Shown one piece after another: positions 4,237 to 16,498 of a stretch of 16,498 bases of DNA (within the stretch, counting starts at the first letter, position 1; each line of letters begins with the position of its first letter). Below the pieces are notes generated by a model. It saw only the letters and a list, made by a program, of their open reading frames with translations. It searched no databases and had not been told where the DNA came from. The translations under genes were made by a program, and so were the position numbers. The stretch is taken from assembly GCA_030147905.1 (NCBI GenBank), contig JASBUM010000472.1, forward strand, positions 1 to 16,498. The letters run 5' to 3'. The DNA comes from Acidimangrovimonas sp. (lineage in GTDB: Bacteria; Pseudomonadota; Alphaproteobacteria; Rhodobacterales; Rhodobacteraceae).

Positions 4237-5613
4237 CTATCGGTCTGCCGGCGGTCCGCGGTCGAGATAGGTGGCGAGGGGGGCGAAAAGCGCCGCCAGC
4301 GGATTGGCGGGCCCCATCCGGATGATGGCCTCGACCGGGGTTCCGGGCTTGAGCCGGCCCGCCGACGAGCCACCGCCCGAACCGCCGCTGCCCGAACCGC
4401 CGCTGCCCGGGCCACCGTCGGCCGGGCCACCGTCGTCAGGGCCGTCTGTGGGACCGTCGTTCAGCGCGACCTCGGCCCGGAAATAGACCCCGCCGCCGCC
4501 CGGGTCGGCGAAGCGATCGGCGGATATCCGTTCGATCCGCCCGGTCAGTTCGCGGCCCCCCTCGGCATCGCCGTCAGCCGGAATGATGCGGGCGCGGGTT
4601 CCCGGGCCTATCCGGGCGATCAGATGCGCCGGGATCCGCAGGCGCGCGACGCGAGGCGCCGCATCCTCGACGATCGACATGAGCGGCGCGGCCGCGCGCA
4701 CCACACCGGGCGCGGGCGGCGCGGTCAGGCCATGGACGACACCGGAAACCGGCGCCCGGATCACCAGCGCGGCCAGCCGGCCGCGGAGCAGCTCGAGCCG
4801 CAGCCGGGCGGCGTCGTCGGCCCGGTCGAGATCCCCGAGCGCGCTCAGCGCGGCGGCGCGGGCATCGGCGGCATCCGCGCGGCTGCCCAGAGCGATCCGC
4901 GCGGATTCTTCCCGAGCCATGGCACGGGCCGCGATCAACTGCCCCTGTCGTCCGGAATGTTCGGCGGCGGCGCGTTCGAATGCGCGCAGGCGATCACGGG
5001 TGCCCAGTCCGCGCGTGCTCAGCGCACGTGCACGGTCGAGATCCTCGGCGATCAGGGCGGCCTGCCGCTCTGCCGCCGCGATCTGCGTATCGAGCCCCTC
5101 GATGCGCCGCGCGATCTCGGCCTCCCGTCGCCGGTTCTGTTCGCGCACCGCCCGGCGCGCATCGCGGCGGGTCCGGAAATGCCTGCGCTCATCCTCGATC
5201 AGGCTGCGCAGCGCCTCATCGGATTCGGCCCGCAGCAGCAGCTCGGGAGGAAAGATCGGCTCGGTGCCGTCGCCGCGGCTTTCGGCACGCAGGCGGGCGC
5301 GGTGCAGGGCCCGGCGATCGCGCGCCCGTCGCAAGATCGCCGCCTCGGCCTCCAGCGCGCTGCCGTCGAGACGGATCAACGGCTGGCCGACCTTGACCGG
5401 GGATCCCTCGCGGACCAGCAGCGCCGCCACGGTGCCACCTTCGGCATGGGCGAGGACGGGCCGTGTCCTTTCCGGCGCGACGACGCCGGTCAGGCTCGCT
5501 GCGCCTTCGATCCTTGCACCCGCGGCCCAGGCAAGCGTGCCGCCCGCGAGAATGGCCAGCGCGATCAGCGCGCGGCGCGCCGGAATCCGCATGCGGAGGT
5601 GATGCGGCTTCAT
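4237..5613 (-). CDS. HlyD-family type I secretion periplasmic adaptor
   Basis: 458 residues: a cytoplasmic N-terminus, one membrane anchor (about 14-31), a first lipoyl half near EGGTVAALLVREGSPVKVGQ, a long charged alpha-helical hairpin rich in Arg, Ala and Glu (about 90-280), the second lipoyl half IRAPVSGVVHGL, and a beta-barrel region closing with LKPGTPVEAII. This is the membrane fusion protein that joins the ABC exporter to an outer-membrane TolC-like channel. Its ATG overlaps the ABC gene stop (ATGA), so the two are made together. Oddity: residues about 385-419 are almost purely Gly, Ser, Pro and Asp and are encoded in part by 15-base repeats. No TolC or RTX substrate gene is in the window. 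Confidence 0.92.
   Translation of the reverse strand: MKPHHLRMRIPARRALIALAILAGGTLAWAAGARIEGAASLTGVVAPERTRPVLAHAEGGTVAALLVREGSPVKVGQPLIRLDGSALEAEAAILRRARDRRALHRARLRAESRGDGTEPIFPPELLLRAESDEALRSLIEDERRHFRTRRDARRAVREQNRRREAEIARRIEGLDTQIAAAERQAALIAEDLDRARALSTRGLGTRDRLRAFERAAAEHSGRQGQLIAARAMAREESARIALGSRADAADARAAALSALGDLDRADDAARLRLELLRGRLAALVIRAPVSGVVHGLTAPPAPGVVRAAAPLMSIVEDAAPRVARLRIPAHLIARIGPGTRARIIPADGDAEGGRELTGRIERISADRFADPGGGGVYFRAEVALNDGPTDGPDDGGPADGGPGSGGSGSGGSGGGSSAGRLKPGTPVEAIIRMGPANPLAALFAPLATYLDRGPPADR
4376..4435. repeat. Four 15-base tandem units inside the HlyD gene
   Basis: Four consecutive 15-base units lie at 4376-4390, 4391-4405, 4406-4420 and 4421-4435. The first two are identical (CCCGAACCGCCGCTG); the last two end CCGGGCCACCGTCG and differ from each other by one base. 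The unit is five codons, so copy-number change keeps the adaptor frame. On the coding strand it gives the Gly/Ser/Pro-rich linker of the adaptor. Confidence 0.85.
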
Positions 5614-7427
5614 CGCTTCACCGGCCGCAGGCTGGCGAAGATCGGGCCGCGCACGGCCGCGGTCTTTGCGGCGGGGCCGGTGACGGGCCGCGTGTCGGAC
5701 GGGGCGGCGCCCCTGGTCGCGCCGGCCGGGCCGGGCGGCGTCTTCGCGGCCCCCGGCACCGGCCGCAGGGCGATCCCCGTGCGGGGGCTGATCGCGCGGA
5801 TCCTCCCGGCGTCGAGCGCCATGATCCGCCCGCATTCGCGTATCGCGGCCGGGCGATGGGCCATCACCAACGCCGCGCCCCCGGCGGCCAGGTGTCGGCG
5901 GAGCGCGGCGCCGATGGCGAGATTGCCGGCGTGGTCGAGATGGGCGTTGGGCTCGTCCAGAACCAGCAGCACCGGGGCGCCATAAAGCGCGCGCGCCAGT
6001 CCGATGCTCTGACGCTGGCCGCCCGACAACGGGGCCCCGTCCGGCTCGAGGGGCGTATCGAAACCGCCGGGCAGACCGCGGATCATCGCCTCCGCACCGG
6101 CCGCGCGGGCTGCGGCGATCACGGCAGCCGGGTCCGGCGACGGATCGAGCCGCGCGATGTTCTGGGCCACCGTTCCCTCGAACAGGGTGATCTGCTGGGG
6201 AAGATAGCCGATCCAGCGGCCGAGCCGATCGGCATCATGCAGCGCCAGAGCGCCGCCGCCCAGCGCGATCGTCCCGCGTGACGGCGTCCAGACGCCGGCC
6301 GCCAGTCGCGCCAGCGACGATTTTCCTGCCCCGCTCGGCCCGATCACGCCCATCGCCTCGCCGGGGTTCAGGCGAAAGTTGATGTCGATCAGCGCCGCGC
6401 GGCCGGCGCCCGGCGGCACCACGCCGACATCCGAAAATTCCAGCATCGCATCCGGGCGCAGGGTCGCGAGGCGAGGCGCGGCCGGCGGATCGCCTGCGAG
6501 AAGGGCGGACAGCTGTCGCCATGCCACGACCCCCCGTGCCAGCACGTCCCACTGGGCAATCGCGGTTTCCAGCGGGGCCAGTGCCCGGCTGAGCAGGACC
6601 GAGGCCGCGATCATCGCGCCCGGCGAGACCGCCCCGCGCAGCGCCAGCCATGCCCCCAGCCCCAGCATCGCCGATTGCACGAACAGCCGCAGGCTGCGTG
6701 TGAAGGCGGCGAAACCGCCCGCCAGGTCTGCCGCGCCGATCTCGGCGCCAAGGGCCGCGTCGCGCCGCCGGCGCCAGCGCGCGCGGGCGGTGCCCCGCAT
6801 GCCCAGGCCGCCCAGCGTCTCGGCGCCCGCGCGATAGCTTGCCGCCATTGATTCGGCCCCGTTGCGCAAGAGACCCGCCCGCGCCAGCCGCCGCCGCACC
6901 AGCAGCCGGTTCGTCGCCGCAAGCGCCAGGAGAACGGCGCTGGCAGCCAGCGCGAGCAGGCCAAGCTGGATATGGAAGGCGAAGATCACGGCGATGAAGA
7001 ACGGTGTCCACGGGATGTCGAACAGCGCCAGCGCGACCGGCGCGGCGAACAGCCGGCGGAGCGATTCGACGGCGCCTTCGGGCCCGGCGCCCGGATTGTG
7101 CTGCGCCTGCCGCAACGCGGCCGAGAAGACGCGCCCGTCCAGCCGGTCCTGCAATCGCGCACCGATTCGGGTCACGATCTGGCCGCGGGCATGATCCACG
7201 AAGGCGAGCATGACGAAGAGGAAGGCGGCGAGCAGGGTCAGCGCCAGAAGGGTTTCGGCGGAGCGGCTGCGCAGGACCCGGTCGTAGACCTGAAGCATGT
7301 AGAGCGGTCCGGTCAGCATCAGCGCGTTCACCGCGAAACTGAGCATCAGCAGAAGCGGAACCAGCCGCCGATTCGCGGCCAGAACGTGCCACAGGGAAGT
7401 CCGGCCGAGGGACGAGAACTGTGGCAA
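5610..7427 (-). CDS. Type I secretion system permease/ATPase (PrtD-like ABC exporter)
   Basis: 605 residues from the chosen start. The N-terminal membrane domain has the family hallmark LMLTGPLYMLQVYDRVL (about residue 35-52). The ATPase domain has Walker A GPSGAGKSS (about 360), the Q-loop GYLPQQITLFEGTV, signature LSGGQRQ (about 466), Walker B VLLVLDEP (about 486) and the switch His in MAHRP. It energises export of an unknown protein through the HlyD-type adaptor encoded next. The frame is open to an ATG at 7514, but that ATG has AGGCGG with no spacer. TTG 7427 has AAAGGA with a 6-base gap and gives family-like length, so it is preferred. A Pro/Ala-rich tail of about 53 residues follows the ATPase domain. 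The stop overlaps the adaptor start. Confidence 0.92.
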   Translation of the reverse strand: MPQFSSLGRTSLWHVLAANRRLVPLLLMLSFAVNALMLTGPLYMLQVYDRVLRSRSAETLLALTLLAAFLFVMLAFVDHARGQIVTRIGARLQDRLDGRVFSAALRQAQHNPGAGPEGAVESLRRLFAAPVALALFDIPWTPFFIAVIFAFHIQLGLLALAASAVLLALAATNRLLVRRRLARAGLLRNGAESMAASYRAGAETLGGLGMRGTARARWRRRRDAALGAEIGAADLAGGFAAFTRSLRLFVQSAMLGLGAWLALRGAVSPGAMIAASVLLSRALAPLETAIAQWDVLARGVVAWRQLSALLAGDPPAAPRLATLRPDAMLEFSDVGVVPPGAGRAALIDINFRLNPGEAMGVIGPSGAGKSSLARLAAGVWTPSRGTIALGGGALALHDADRLGRWIGYLPQQITLFEGTVAQNIARLDPSPDPAAVIAAARAAGAEAMIRGLPGGFDTPLEPDGAPLSGGQRQSIGLARALYGAPVLLVLDEPNAHLDHAGNLAIGAALRRHLAAGGAALVMAHRPAAIRECGRIMALDAGRIRAISPRTGIALRPVPGAAKTPPGPAGATRGAAPSDTRPVTGPAAKTAAVRGPIFASLRPVKR

Positions 7428-7433
7428 AACTGA

Positions 7434-7439
7434 TCCTTT
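7434..7439 (-). promoter_or_regulatory. Ribosome binding site AAAGGA deciding a TTG start
   Basis: AAAGGA on the minus strand lies 6 bases before the TTG at 7427. It is the best placed Shine-Dalgarno match among the possible starts of the type I exporter gene. Confidence 0.5.
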
Positions 7440-7444
7440 CGCCT

Positions 7445-7507
7445 TCAAAACGACCACGCCCCCCGTCTGGTTTGGGGAACCGGCCGGGTGCCACCGTTGT
7501 TTTGCAT
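7445..7507 (-). CDS. Possible 20-residue leader peptide upstream of the ABC exporter
   Basis: A short reading frame starts at ATG 7507 and ends with TGA at 7445; its product begins MQNNGGTRPV and ends GAWSF. It has AGGCGG 7 bases upstream, which is ideal spacing, whereas the same AGGCGG directly abuts the exporter's alternative ATG at 7514. The stop lies 17 bases before the exporter's TTG, whose own ribosome site (AAAGGA) falls in that gap. The arrangement would suit a translationally coupled leader. This is inference from spacing only; no homology is recognised and the frame may be chance. Confidence 0.3.
   Translation of the reverse strand: MQNNGGTRPVPQTRRGAWSF
7476..7501 (+). promoter_or_regulatory. 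Weak candidate EcfG-type promoter before mlaA
   Basis: GGAAC at 7476-7480 is followed after 17 bases by TGTT at 7498-7501, about 77 bases before the mlaA ATG and in the right direction. The pattern resembles the three elements near the sigma gene, but a match this loose is expected about once by chance in a window of this size. Confidence 0.22.
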
Positions 7508-7577
7508 CGCGCATCCGCCTAAATCTGACGGGCATCCCGGGGCCGGTCTTTCCCCGCCAGTTCGGACAGTAAATTCG

Positions 7578-8354
7578 ATGACAGCTAACATTCCGTTTCC
7601 CGCTTTGGGTCTGACACGGCTTCGCCGGGGTCCGATCGTGGTGGCGCTGCTGCTGGCGAGCGTGGTGGCCGGTTGCGCCGCACCGAACGGCAAGTCGCGC
7701 TTCAACGACCCCTACGAGAAGCAGAACCGGGAAAACCACGCGGCCAATATCGCGCTGGACAAATCTGTGATCCGGCCGGTTTCGCAGGTCTACGGCAAGG
7801 CCATGCCGGGGCCGTTGCGCCGCGGCGTGACGAACCTGTCGAACAACTTCGCCCTGCCGTCCTATGTGATCAACGACCTGCTGCAGGCCAAGATCTATGC
7901 CGCGGCCGACAATTCGCTGCGCTTCGCGGTCAACACGATCTTCGGCATCGGCGGCATCTTCGATCCCGCGGGGGCCATGGGTCTGACCGCCAAGCGCAAT
8001 GATTTCGGCGAGACGCTGTTTGTCTGGGGCGCGCCCGAGGGCGCCTATCTGGAGTTGCCGGTGCTGGGCCCCTCGACCGAGCGGGACGTGGCCGGCAAGG
8101 TCGTGGATGCGGTCGCGGATCCGCTGCGCTTCGTCCTGCCGCGCGACCTGCGCCGTCTGCCGCTGACCACCGAGGTGGCCTCAAAGCTCAACGATCGATA
8201 TCGTTTCTCGGGTACCGTCGATTCGCTGCTGTACGGATCGGCCGACAGCTATGCGCAGATGCGCCTGCTGTATCTGGAAAAGCGCCATTTCGAGATCGGC
8301 CAGAAATCGGCGAGCGCCAACTACAACCCCTACGAGGACCCCTATGCCAAATGA
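7578..8354 (+). CDS. mlaA: MlaA (VacJ) family outer-membrane lipoprotein
   Basis: 258 residues with a lipoprotein signal: basic TRLRRG, a hydrophobic stretch and the lipobox VVAGC, giving lipid-modified Cys33. The MlaA fold follows with FNDPYEKQNRENHAANIALDK, PLRRGVTNLSNNFALPSYVIND, RFAVNTIFGIGGIFDPA and YLELPVLGPSTERD, then a C-terminal region rich in Tyr and Asn. MlaA is the outer-membrane component that removes mislocalised phospholipid from the outer leaflet and hands it to periplasmic MlaC. The ATG at 7578 is chosen over an in-frame start at 7488 because only it places the signal peptide at the N-terminus. It is divergent from the type I exporter and overlaps mlaC by 11 bases. Confidence 0.95.
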   Translation: MTANIPFPALGLTRLRRGPIVVALLLASVVAGCAAPNGKSRFNDPYEKQNRENHAANIALDKSVIRPVSQVYGKAMPGPLRRGVTNLSNNFALPSYVINDLLQAKIYAAADNSLRFAVNTIFGIGGIFDPAGAMGLTAKRNDFGETLFVWGAPEGAYLELPVLGPSTERDVAGKVVDAVADPLRFVLPRDLRRLPLTTEVASKLNDRYRFSGTVDSLLYGSADSYAQMRLLYLEKRHFEIGQKSASANYNPYEDPYAK

Positions 8355-14544: not shown

Positions 14545-14817
14545 TTAGCGCGTCGGGTTGCCCTTCGGCCCGTGTTCGCCGGAGCGCCCGTCGTGTTCGC
14601 GGTGTTGATCGCCGGCGGGGGTCTTGCCCGTGCCGGACGACCCGTCGCGGCGCGCTTCGCCCTGCTGCTGCTGCTGTTGCTCACGCTCGGGCTGGCGCTG
14701 GCCCTGCTGCTGTGCCTGCTGCTGGCGCTGCTGGTCGTGGGGTCCGTCGGACCCTCCGGACGTCTTGCGCGAGTCCTGGGCACGGTCCTGGCCGTGCTTT
14801 TCGTTGGAGTTGTTCAT
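14545..14817 (-). CDS. Gln/Gly-rich hydrophilin-like small protein, unknown function
   Basis: 90 residues, not recognised by homology. It has 19 Gln and 14 Gly, many charged residues and His, and no Leu, Ile, Val, Phe, Trp, Tyr or Cys at all, so it should be fully disordered and soluble. Gln runs occupy residues 29-52. Gene reality is supported by AAAGGAG exactly 7 bases before the ATG, a GGAAC-N17-GTT promoter further upstream, and a perfect hairpin after the stop. Proteins of this composition (hydrophilin-like) are often induced by osmotic or desiccation stress; that role is inference from composition and promoter. It is divergent from the EcfG-type sigma gene. The Leu-rich frame on the opposite strand is its antisense shadow. 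Confidence 0.75.
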   Translation of the reverse strand: MNNSNEKHGQDRAQDSRKTSGGSDGPHDQQRQQQAQQQGQRQPEREQQQQQQGEARRDGSSGTGKTPAGDQHREHDGRSGEHGPKGNPTR

Positions 14818-14824
14818 CGGTTTG

Positions 14825-14831
14825 CTCCTTT
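14825..14831 (-). promoter_or_regulatory. Strong ribosome binding site of the Gln-rich gene
   Basis: AAAGGAG with a 7-base spacer to ATG 14817. It is the best Shine-Dalgarno sequence in this part of the window and fixes the start of an otherwise unrecognised gene. Confidence 0.8.
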
Positions 14832-14850
14832 AGACCGGTGGAACCGTGCA

Positions 14851-14875
14851 AACAGTGGAGCCCGTCTATTGTTCC
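14851..14875 (-). promoter_or_regulatory. EcfG-type promoter of the Gln-rich gene
   Basis: On the minus strand GGAAC (14875-14871) is followed after 17 bases by GTT (14853-14851), equal to GGAAC-N16-TGTT. The known consensus for EcfG sigma factors is GGAAC-N16/17-CGTT. The -10 part lies 33 bases before the ATG, leaving room for a short leader with the ribosome site. The -35 part is one arm of a 16-base palindrome. Confidence 0.65.
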
Positions 14876-14886
14876 CGATCGGGAAC
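14871..14886. repeat. Perfect 16-base palindrome GTTCCCGATCGGGAAC
   Basis: The palindrome contains a GGAAC element on each strand. The minus-strand copy has a correctly spaced GTT; the plus-strand copy has none. It may be an operator or simply a paired promoter element. Confidence 0.7.
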
Positions 14887-14955
14887 CGCTGTGCCTCTGC
14901 TATGGCGACAATCGGCCTGCCGCCGGCTGCTGCTGCCAGTGTGATCGCGCGGCGC

Positions 14956-14981
14956 GGAACGATGTGGATCGCCGCCGCGTT
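14956..14981 (+). promoter_or_regulatory. EcfG-type promoter of the sigma factor gene
   Basis: GGAAC at 14956-14960, 17 bases, then CGTT at 14978-14981, a full match to the EcfG consensus GGAAC-N16/17-CGTT. It points at the sigma gene, implying positive autoregulation, and predicts a transcript start near 14990 and a leader of about 245 bases. Confidence 0.7.
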
Positions 14982-15046
14982 TCCTATTCGCTGCACTCTA
15001 GATGTCGCGCGCGCGAGGCGCCGGGGATGCCAGCGGCCGCTCCAGA

Positions 15047-15075
15047 CCGGGCGGGGTCGGGTGAAACCCGCCCGG
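15047..15075 (+). other. Strong hairpin in the sigma gene leader
   Basis: CCGGGCGGG (15047-15055) pairs perfectly with CCCGCCCGG (15067-15075) around an 11-base loop. It lies about 57 bases after the predicted transcript start and 160 before the ATG. It could attenuate transcription or be a structural part of the leader. Confidence 0.5.
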
Positions 15076-15219
15076 CCGGCAACGAAACCGATGACGGTCG
15101 CGCCTGTCCGTGCACCGCATCTGGGCACCGCATCCGGGCCGGGCCCGCGCCGCACCCGCCGTCGTGACGACGCTGGTCGGCGACAGGACGGGCGAACCGT
15201 CTTCTGATCTGTCTGCCCT

Positions 15220-15228
15220 GGAAGGAAG
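15220..15228 (+). promoter_or_regulatory. Ribosome binding site fixing the sigma gene start
   Basis: GGAAGGAAG lies 6 bases before ATG 15235 and supports this upstream start over the in-frame ATG at 15265, which has no such site. Confidence 0.65.
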
Positions 15229-15234
15229 AACGAC

Positions 15235-15945
15235 ATGCGCAAACCCCGATCGACGCCTCGTGCGATGCGCGACCGGCGGGAAGGTTCGCGCCCGGACCCC
15301 GCCCAAGCCCGGCCCGGCACGCCGCCACCAATCACGCCGCCAACCGTCACACCTCTGACCGCGCATCTCGATCCGGAACTTCTGATCGAGTGGATTCCCA
15401 GCCTGCGGGCCTTCGCGCGGACGCTGACCCGCGAACCGGCCGATGCCGACGATCTCGTGCAGGAAACGCTGTGCAAGGCGATCCTCAACAAGGAGAAGTT
15501 CGTGGCCGACACGAACCTGCGTGCCTGGCTCTTCACGATTCTCAAGAACAGCTTCTACAACAGCCGCAAGCGCGCCGCGCGCGAACAGGTGGGTGCCTCC
15601 GAATGCGCCTCGGAACTGGCCAGCGTTCCGGCGACACAGGAATGGTCGTTGCATGGCCGCGACCTCGTCAATGCGATCCAACGGCTACCGCCCCATTACC
15701 GCGATACGCTGGTGCTGGTCCTCATGCAGGGAGAAAGCTACGAGGCGAGCGCGCGGATCTGCAACTGCACGATCGGGACGGTCAAGAGCCGCGTGAACCG
15801 GGCCCGTGCCATGGTGATCGCCGGCCTCGAGGAGGTCCGCCCGACCCTCAAGGCGCCTTTGCATCCGGCGGGCCGCCGGCCTCCGCCTACGCCCGGCCGG
15901 GCGGGACTGAGCGGGAGGTTGGGGATGCGCCCGGCGCTGCGCTGA
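15235..15945 (+). CDS. ecfG: ECF sigma factor of the EcfG (general stress response) type
   Basis: 236 residues. Region 2 (about 48-115) reads SLRAFARTLTREPADADDLVQETL and NLRAWLFTILKNSFYNSRKR, typical of EcfG. Region 4 (about 142-195) reads AIQRLPPHYRDTLVLV, ESYEASARICNC and IGTVKSRVNRARAM, with the helix-turn-helix that reads the -35 GGAAC. EcfG directs the alphaproteobacterial general stress response and is normally held by the anti-sigma factor NepR until PhyR is phosphorylated. Oddities: a Pro/Arg-rich N-terminal extension of about 45 residues, a Pro/Gly/Arg-rich tail of about 35 residues, and no nepR or phyR nearby. It has its own consensus-type promoter. That it is an ECF sigma is near certain; the EcfG group assignment is strong inference. 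Confidence 0.9.
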   Translation: MRKPRSTPRAMRDRREGSRPDPAQARPGTPPPITPPTVTPLTAHLDPELLIEWIPSLRAFARTLTREPADADDLVQETLCKAILNKEKFVADTNLRAWLFTILKNSFYNSRKRAAREQVGASECASELASVPATQEWSLHGRDLVNAIQRLPPHYRDTLVLVLMQGESYEASARICNCTIGTVKSRVNRARAMVIAGLEEVRPTLKAPLHPAGRRPPPTPGRAGLSGRLGMRPALR

Positions 15946-15993
15946 ATCCCCGGCGGGCACGCGGGTGTCGCGATCGCCGGCGCCGGGATGGAA

Positions 15994-16030
15994 CGGGCGG
16001 ATCAGCGACCGGCGCCGGCGGATCCGCCCG
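15994..16030 (+). terminator. Candidate terminator of the sigma gene
   Basis: CGGGCGGATC (15994-16003) pairs perfectly with GATCCGCCCG (16021-16030); the 17-base loop itself contains the palindrome CCGGCGCCGG. It begins 49 bases after the sigma stop. No T-tract follows. Confidence 0.55.
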
Positions 16031-16181
16031 CCGCGCAAGGCGTCGGCGTCATTCCGCGCGCGGCCGAACCCGGGCAGCTCCGGCCGTCAGGTCCTTGATG
16101 GCGCTCGATGAAATGCGCCCGTTCGGCGAAGATGTGGCCGGCTTGGCGCCGCTTCGCGATCCTGCCGGCCCGCCCCCCGCA

Positions 16182-16207
16182 GGAACCCGTGGCGCGCGGC
16201 ATCCGTT
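16182..16207 (+). promoter_or_regulatory. EcfG-type promoter of the SDR gene
   Basis: GGAAC at 16182-16186, 17 bases, then CGTT at 16204-16207: the same form and spacing as the element before the sigma gene. It is oriented toward the SDR gene and predicts a leader of about 150 bases. Confidence 0.65.
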
Positions 16208-16366
16208 ATGTCCCGTGCCGGCCGTGCACATGATCCCGCGCCCGCATTCGGCGCCGGGACCAACCGGTCGCATGATCCGGCCCTGCCGCAACCGGCCGGT
16301 CCGTTCATCCGCGCTGGCGTCCTGCGCCCCTCGCCACATCCATCCATGACCCGGAGTCCGAATTCC

Positions 16367-16498
16367 ATGTCCAAACCGCAGTCCGAACCCCGGCCCGAAC
16401 CCCGGTCCTACCCGACACCGCCGTTCCCGAGCCAGCCCCAGCGCCCCCCCGGTCTCGAACGCCGGATGGAGCCCGAACCCGACCATGGCGAGCACAGC
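16367..16498 (+). CDS. SDR family oxidoreductase, stress type (3' end missing)
   Basis: The first 44 residues of a gene that leaves the window. The sequence TPPFPSQPQRPPGLERRM followed by PEPDHGEHS is the characteristic N-terminal extension of the YghA/general stress protein 39 group of short-chain dehydrogenases. There it precedes a YKGSGRL-like segment and the Rossmann ALITGGDSGIG motif, neither of which is in view. These are cytoplasmic NAD(P)-dependent oxidoreductases often placed in general stress regulons. ATG 16367 is chosen because GGAG lies 10 bases upstream; the in-frame ATG at 16346 has none. An EcfG-type promoter lies upstream. The call rests only on this N-terminal signature. Confidence 0.78.
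   Translation, partial: MSKPQSEPRPEPRSYPTPPFPSQPQRPPGLERRMEPEPDHGEHS

Follow-up and report, generated by a model that had tools for sequence, protein, structure and literature searches.

In alphaproteobacteria, the canonical general stress response (GSR) locus combines phyR with nepR-ecfG, and extra EcfG copies have been reported for about half of the completed genomes counted (PMC3892343; this and two further papers on such sigma factors, PMC4814048 and PMC6180224, are cited here from excerpts). In Rubellimicrobium thermophilum there are two GSR loci, and both include a PhyR and an EcfG. Among the additional sigma factors, EcfG2 of Rhizobium etli is reported to be autoregulated (PMC3892343), and its control by NepR is called unclear in the excerpt of one paper (PMC3892343) and not known in that of another (PMC4814048). 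RpoE5 of Sinorhizobium meliloti provides one published precedent for a NepR-like partner of such a sigma (PMC6180224). SigU of Caulobacter and EcfG2 of Sphingomonas melonis are second EcfG paralogues that, in the excerpts, are reported not to bind NepR (PMC4814048) and are placed nearer to canonical EcfG (PMC3892343). Here we analyze a 16,498 nt stretch of Acidimangrovimonas sp. (contig JASBUM010000472.1, hereafter the window), which carries near its right end a gene for what is presumably another second EcfG paralogue. It is probable that this sigma, a non-canonical second EcfG, forms the center of a stress island at this end of the contig, in which promoter elements at the genes for the sigma, a Gln-rich small protein and an SDR-family oxidoreductase are read by an EcfG-type holoenzyme. 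Loci of this kind are known, and this one would be a further instance; it links a group of Rhodobacterales to the clade of R. etli EcfG2 and S. meliloti RpoE5. In a literature search (titles and beginnings of abstracts), no paper was found whose subject was a Rhodobacterales clade of non-canonical EcfG.

The sigma gene (15235..15945, + strand) specifies a protein of 236 aa and is preceded by an AAGGAAG Shine-Dalgarno sequence. The protein consists of a Pro-rich N-terminal extension (approximately residues 1–39), a core (approximately 40–200) and a basic, Pro-rich C-terminal tail, and matches the Pfam domains Sigma70_r2, PhyR_sigma2 and Sigma70_r4_2. An earlier note, made from the letters of the window alone, had called it EcfG-type, and this was upheld: both sigma-70 regions 2 and 4 are present, and the best solved relative is PDB 5uxx_A (E 1.4e-29), which we take to be from Bartonella quintana and which is accompanied in its entry by NepR as chain B. 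Among the 25 listed of 79 matched NCBIfam models, that of the general ECF superfamily is the only one whose cut-off is reached. In a tree of 84 rows, a long branch (support 100/100) sets the canonical sigmas apart, with one odd row (L114) weakly placed beside them. When S. meliloti RpoE5 and one further canonical sigma were added, the same split (100/100) separated 59 non-canonical from 27 canonical rows, and R. etli EcfG2, RpoE5 and the ECF15-like window sigma all fell on the non-canonical side. The closest group of the window sigma contains Roseivivax marinus (58% identity), Pseudooceanicola batsensis and genome G281 (99/91), and the named relatives of both the sigma and the PBP1A of the window are mainly Rhodobacterales.

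Short signatures follow the same division. The window sigma carries QEW and RE..DC, and a QEW or QDW motif is found in 28/32 Rhodobacterales relatives, 19/24 other relatives and R. etli EcfG2, but in none of 26 canonical sigmas. Conversely, REVxDxDG is present in 22/26 canonical sigmas and 0/58 others, and the window sigma lacks this stretch. A column-by-column search for features peculiar to the non-canonical sigmas gave four weak differences, and the motif count was the clearer. Judged by its sequence, then, the window sigma is a member of the non-canonical EcfG clade, as R. etli EcfG2 and S. meliloti RpoE5 are. The Pro-rich extension (15235-15351) has no counterpart in 15 aligned relatives, and the leader of the gene is also unusually long. 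A NepR-like N-terminal extension is described for sigmas of Methylobacterium (PMC4814048); that of the window sigma is Pro-rich and is not matched by a NepR-like profile, and was rejected as a case of this kind.

Each of the two described clade members shares part of the arrangement in the window. R. etli EcfG2 (PF00052), which we infer to be the p42f gene at 54673-55200, the sole EcfG-like match in 35 kb, is likewise solitary and bears the signature PTQEW, and it adjoins a divergent ferritin-like gene. It differs in belonging to Rhizobiales, in its other neighbors and in lacking a forward GGAAC element within 350 nt; a NepR-like open reading frame (ORF) was not found in the 35 kb examined. 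The S. meliloti RpoE5 locus, identified by an exact match to its published promoter, has EcfG-type elements nearby (the -10 of rpoE5 is CATT) and the sigma bears the signature SQEW. Unlike the window, where none was seen, it has a NepR-like ORF 39 nt downstream on the opposite strand. This ORF, annotated as hypothetical in one record, matches our NepR-like profile (see below) at E 1.9e-15, and is taken to be the RsiA1-like ORF of PMC6180224. The canonical GSR locus shares with the window the sigma domains and the promoter consensus, but the window has no recognized nepR or phyR (six-frame search with an iterated profile for NepR-like ORFs; main ORFs scanned for response regulators), and its sigma lies in the other clade and lacks REVxDxDG. 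The description of this region as a general stress locus, made in the earlier note, is therefore not supported if the core system is meant.

In relatives, this sigma is a second copy. Loci were taken from the best 80 of 559 relatives in a scan of species genomes (one of the 80, L074, is a canonical locus), and 21 Rhodobacterales genomes (G001-G021, chosen via sigma matches; the genome of locus L007 was not included) were compared as wholes. All 21 have NepR and PhyR above cut-off, and in each a sigma lies no more than about 150 bp from a NepR match. In 20/21, the window-type sigma is a separate copy away from nepR-ecfG/phyR, so that the canonical locus is also present in 20/20 of the genomes with a window-type sigma in this set. 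With a profile of window-type rows (A1), the separate copy scores 238–292 bits, versus 149–171 for the one next to NepR. About 8.5 kb separate the two in G014, and in G021 the copy next to NepR (187 bits) is the only one. Across the order, 20/292 genomes carry a window-type sigma (E 1e-58), or 13 by a stricter single-sequence search, and the gene is thus sporadic. Seven of the 20 (G050, G081, G195, G212, G214, G215 and G227) were assigned by score alone (201–235 bits) and lie outside the tree. Plasmid pDSHI02 of Dinoroseobacter shibae (L179) carries a nepR-ecfG cluster and, divergent from it, a response regulator gene, with genes for a DNA starvation protein and a glucosylglycerol-phosphate synthase as neighbors.

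Three promoter-like elements had been reported around the sigma gene, and a motif scan recovered all of them with the same coordinates and strands. The sigma gene is preceded by GGAAC-N17-CGTT (14956..14981, +), the SDR gene by another GGAAC-N17-CGTT (16182..16207, +), and the divergent small gene by GGAAC-N16-TGTT (14851..14875, -), with an ATG 33 nt further on. Full matches had been estimated to be rare, which proved correct: the strict form (CGTT) occurs twice in the window against 0.20 expected, with at least two in 7/200 shuffles, and the relaxed form (NGTT) four times against 0.55 expected, with at least four in 2/200 shuffles. For the three relaxed matches within a 1.36 kb cluster, the expectation is about 0.045 (a hand calculation for a stretch chosen post hoc). 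On the window alone, the likelihood of a chance origin is low but not negligible. The sigma element lies 279 nt before the sigma ATG, far longer than in most relatives, which gives a leader of about 250 nt (14982..15234, +) in which neither an Rfam match nor a NepR-like ORF was detected; an Rfam scan of the whole window gave zero matches. A fourth match, GGAAC-N17-TGTT at 7476-7501 (+), was absent from the earlier note and lies outside the cluster, about 76 nt 5' of position 7578, where an mlaA gene (identified by Pfam MlaA) probably has its ATG. None of seven anchorable mlaA relatives has such an element (17 loci, ten without an anchor by the pattern used).

Around the sigma genes of relatives, the same element recurs. 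Within 350 nt upstream of an anchor residue of the sigma, the relaxed form was found at 26/32 Rhodobacterales and 41/58 other loci, and the strict form at 19/32 and 39/58, compared with 8.0% (relaxed) and 2.9% (strict) of 7940 control windows from the same loci. It lies at -104 to -136 in 23 of the 26 element-bearing Rhodobacterales relatives. The spacing is specific: 28 Rhodobacterales loci (including the window) have 121 N16 and 35 N17 matches versus 3–25 at each of 16 other spacings, and the 58 other loci have 300 and 211 versus 15–46. Density falls with distance from the sigma gene, from 13.8 per 10 kb (0–500 bp) through 7.1, 2.9, 3.8 and 2.3 to 2.1 (6–8 kb) in 21 Rhodobacterales loci, against 0.2–0.8 in the control. 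At the first -10 position each of the four letters occurs (counts of G 46, T 37, C 31 and A 15, against 4.4, 3.6, 4.2 and 2.0, respectively, in the control), in support of the TGTT found before the Gln-rich gene. The scrambled -35 controls differ in dinucleotides, so the spacing control was relied on. Duplicates (L104, L105 and L108, and for the NepR-like count below also L140 and L155) were removed before counting, but many Rhizobiales and some Rhodobacterales loci are close kin, and the counts are not independent. Non-canonical EcfG sigmas thus sit amid clusters of matching promoter elements.

The SDR gene is represented only by its start (16367..16498, +; PRK06128-like), being cut by the end of the contig; this N-terminus scores 26.8 bits with an NCBIfam model and aligns with relatives. 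The element claimed for it is present but lies about 160 nt from the likely start codon at 16367, and not directly at the start of the gene as the ORF beginning at 16208 had implied; an ATG at 16346 is a possible alternative. Homologues (NF004782) occur in 19/21 of the Rhodobacterales genomes, and an element is found within 600 nt upstream of 17/26 anchorable SDR genes (from 30 loci), 16 of them at -191 to -308, compared with 15.4% in the control. Recurrence at both sigma and SDR genes, the N16/N17 excess and the decay with distance lend comparative support to the proposal that these are EcfG-type promoters. Matching elements are present near the window sigma and recurrent in relatives, and their recognition by the window sigma is predicted.

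From these observations we infer that the elements are in use, and the following mechanism is proposed. An EcfG-type sigma (the local one, a canonical one presumed to be encoded elsewhere, or both) together with RNA polymerase would read the GGAAC-N16/17-NGTT elements, so that stress would jointly activate the genes for the sigma, the small protein and the SDR. A positive loop on the sigma gene could amplify the response, and the product of the divergent gene would be a very hydrophilic, probably disordered protective protein. In many relatives, a NepR-like protein encoded nearby may add inhibition of the sigma at the protein level; this is the least certain step, because NepR homologues of Methylobacterium bound no EcfG, and SigU and S. 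melonis EcfG2 were without NepR binding.

A single autoregulated module, as the earlier note envisaged, is plausible but unproven, since the local sigma and canonical EcfG are expected to share one consensus, and each of the two arrangements has been published (PMC3892343, PMC6180224). It is quite possible, though we do not favor it, that the locus is purely part of a cascade, with its elements read by canonical EcfG only and the local sigma acting as a downstream amplifier or being a near-silent paralogue. The canonical loci carry the same promoter consensus; rpoE5 of S. meliloti is activated by RpoE2, and overexpression of RpoE5 revealed a single putative target (PMC6180224); and both sigU and S. 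melonis ecfG2 are reported to be under the control of SigT/EcfG1 (PMC4814048). Against this, R. etli ecfG2 is reported to be autoregulated, with its own targets (PMC3892343), and the crowding of elements at non-canonical sigmas, with its decay over distance, suggests a local relation, although canonical EcfG could read these elements too. Several points weigh against the proposed stress island. The single putative target of RpoE5 argues against an autonomous regulon in S. meliloti (PMC6180224), R. etli EcfG2 is the best-studied member of the clade and is without the forward element, and 6/32 Rhodobacterales relatives have none within 350 nt upstream. The window element itself is displaced, at -441 from the anchor residue, so the 350-nt test counts the window as a miss. 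For the Gln-rich ORF, there is no homologue in which selection might be revealed, and the presence of canonical EcfG, NepR and PhyR in the organism of the window is assumed from relatives.

The Gln-rich gene (14545..14817, - strand) specifies a Gln/Gly/Arg-rich protein of 90 aa that is probably disordered and is very hydrophilic, with a grand average of hydropathicity (GRAVY) of -2.39. It had been presented as an undescribed small protein, and it is probably a real gene with its own promoter: a Shine-Dalgarno sequence (AAAGGAGC) lies 5' of the ATG, and the G+C content by codon position (0.78/0.49/0.87) shows a coding-type bias like that of the HAD, AmtB and PBP genes of the window. No relatives were found, as none of 19 candidates reached E 0.01 and 0/390 genomes gave a match at E 1e-4 (a search with no positive control). 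This lack of relatives is what speaks for the view, which we consider unlikely, that the ORF is not a gene and that the element at 14875-14851 either drives an untranslated RNA or has no function; the Shine-Dalgarno sequence, the codon-position G+C and the stress-type genes at the same spot in several relatives speak against it. Eight divergent elements were read: DUF892-type genes lie behind those of L012 (by Pfam) and L070 (by similarity), what are presumably a manganese-catalase-like ORF behind that of L005 and LigD-like ORFs behind those of L002 and L006, an unknown ORF behind that of L081, no clear gene behind that of L001, and the Gln-rich ORF behind that of the window. Finally, it is very improbable that the elements are mere coincidental matches in G+C-rich DNA, since the two strict matches arising in some shuffles and the extra relaxed match before mlaA are outweighed by the recurrence before sigma and SDR genes of relatives, the spacing specificity and the distance decay.

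Hydrophilins are defined by a glycine content above 6% together with strong hydrophilicity, and the Gln-rich protein, with 15.6% Gly and its low GRAVY, agrees with this definition in composition, the only property compared. A literature search found no paper combining EcfG and hydrophilins. Small ORFs with GRAVY below -1.2 and a Shine-Dalgarno sequence were counted behind N16/N17 elements 4 times in Rhodobacterales and 36 times elsewhere, versus 0–1 per other spacing, and the Gln-rich ORF is the most extreme of those listed. In Rhizobiales, a recurrent family of small hydrophilic proteins with GLEDTFPASDPV and a C-terminal TP/AP-KPP motif is found behind EcfG-type elements (loci L026, L027, L036, L041, L042, L043, L048, L050, L052, L053 and L059).

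Many non-canonical sigmas have a second kind of small gene as a neighbor. A NepR-like profile, seeded by two ORFs near the sigmas of the nearest relatives and then iterated, detected ORFs of 50–77 aa at 58/90 non-canonical loci (21/32 Rhodobacterales and 37/58 others; L002, L003, L005, L006, L010, L013, L070, L081 and L155 among them), at most 500 bp from the sigma in 22 loci and at most 1 kb in 37. The family core reads LLxxIExExVPERLLxLARxLQxAL. Its relation to NepR appears in several comparisons. Canonical NepRs are among the next-best, weak matches of the iterated profile, and a profile comparison of the two families gave a probability of 89 and, as the value of a pairwise comparison, E 2.1e-6 across 40 columns. 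Pfam NepR weakly matches 9/21 members (best 0.0026), and Pfam NepR or a profile of canonical-locus NepRs left weak NepR-like traces in some loci (E about 0.002–0.05). NCBIfam gave no consistent match to the family, and in a PDB search NepR chains appeared at E 0.3–0.5 among unrelated chains, the top match being an unrelated kinase (0.029). Iterating on the same loci inflates the E-values of the profile, so we relied on a reversed-sequence control (best E 0.67) and on the sample of 292 genomes.

In that sample the family (E 1e-3) occurs in 23 genomes, comprising 15/20 with the window-type sigma versus 8/272 without it (Fisher 1.3e-15, or 1.2e-13 minus the two genomes that fed the profile; nominal values, as the genomes are related). 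The ORF is within 5 kb of the sigma in 11 of these 15, about 8–15 kb away in G264, G230 and G007, and on another contig in G011. Seven of the 20 had supplied none of the loci; five of them (G081, G195, G212, G214 and G227) have a NepR-like ORF at 0.06–3.4 kb and two (G050 and G215) have none. Only 2/61 NepR-like genes have an EcfG element within 200 nt upstream, and there is thus no sign of co-regulation of this kind. NepR proteins of a different type are encoded at L068 (8544-8750, immediately 3' of the sigma; 27.5 bits, over the Pfam cut-off) and at L008 (12174-12341, 3.7 kb from the sigma; 24.9 bits, just below it).

In the three nearest relatives, the NepR-like gene lies 0.06–0.9 kb upstream of the sigma on the same strand, whereas the corresponding interval of the window holds the leader and the Gln-rich gene. 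No NepR-like ORF was found in six frames of the window (best match E 0.48, 4.2 bits); past the sigma gene, the window continues for only about 0.55 kb, to its end at 16498. We lean toward the interpretation that many non-canonical EcfG sigmas have a dedicated NepR-like anti-sigma, so that Rhodobacterales and Rhizobiales would possess a NepR-EcfG pair parallel to the canonical one; the lineage of the window would then be derived, the place of the inhibitor gene having been taken by a gene for a lineage-specific disordered protein and control having moved elsewhere. Two NepR paralogues of Methylobacterium, however, bound PhyR, and the excerpt reports none found to bind an EcfG (PMC4814048), so the NepR-like proteins might act on PhyR instead. 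The relatives yield a concrete candidate partner protein, and its binding is directly testable.

The remaining genes of the window are of housekeeping type, and include those for an MscS channel, a pterin dehydratase, a FemAB-like protein, GDPD, a RidA-like protein, an HlyD/ABC pair, MlaA, P-II and an ammonium transporter. The ABC transporter and HlyD-type membrane-fusion pair (4237-7739, - strand) resembles a type I secretion exporter.

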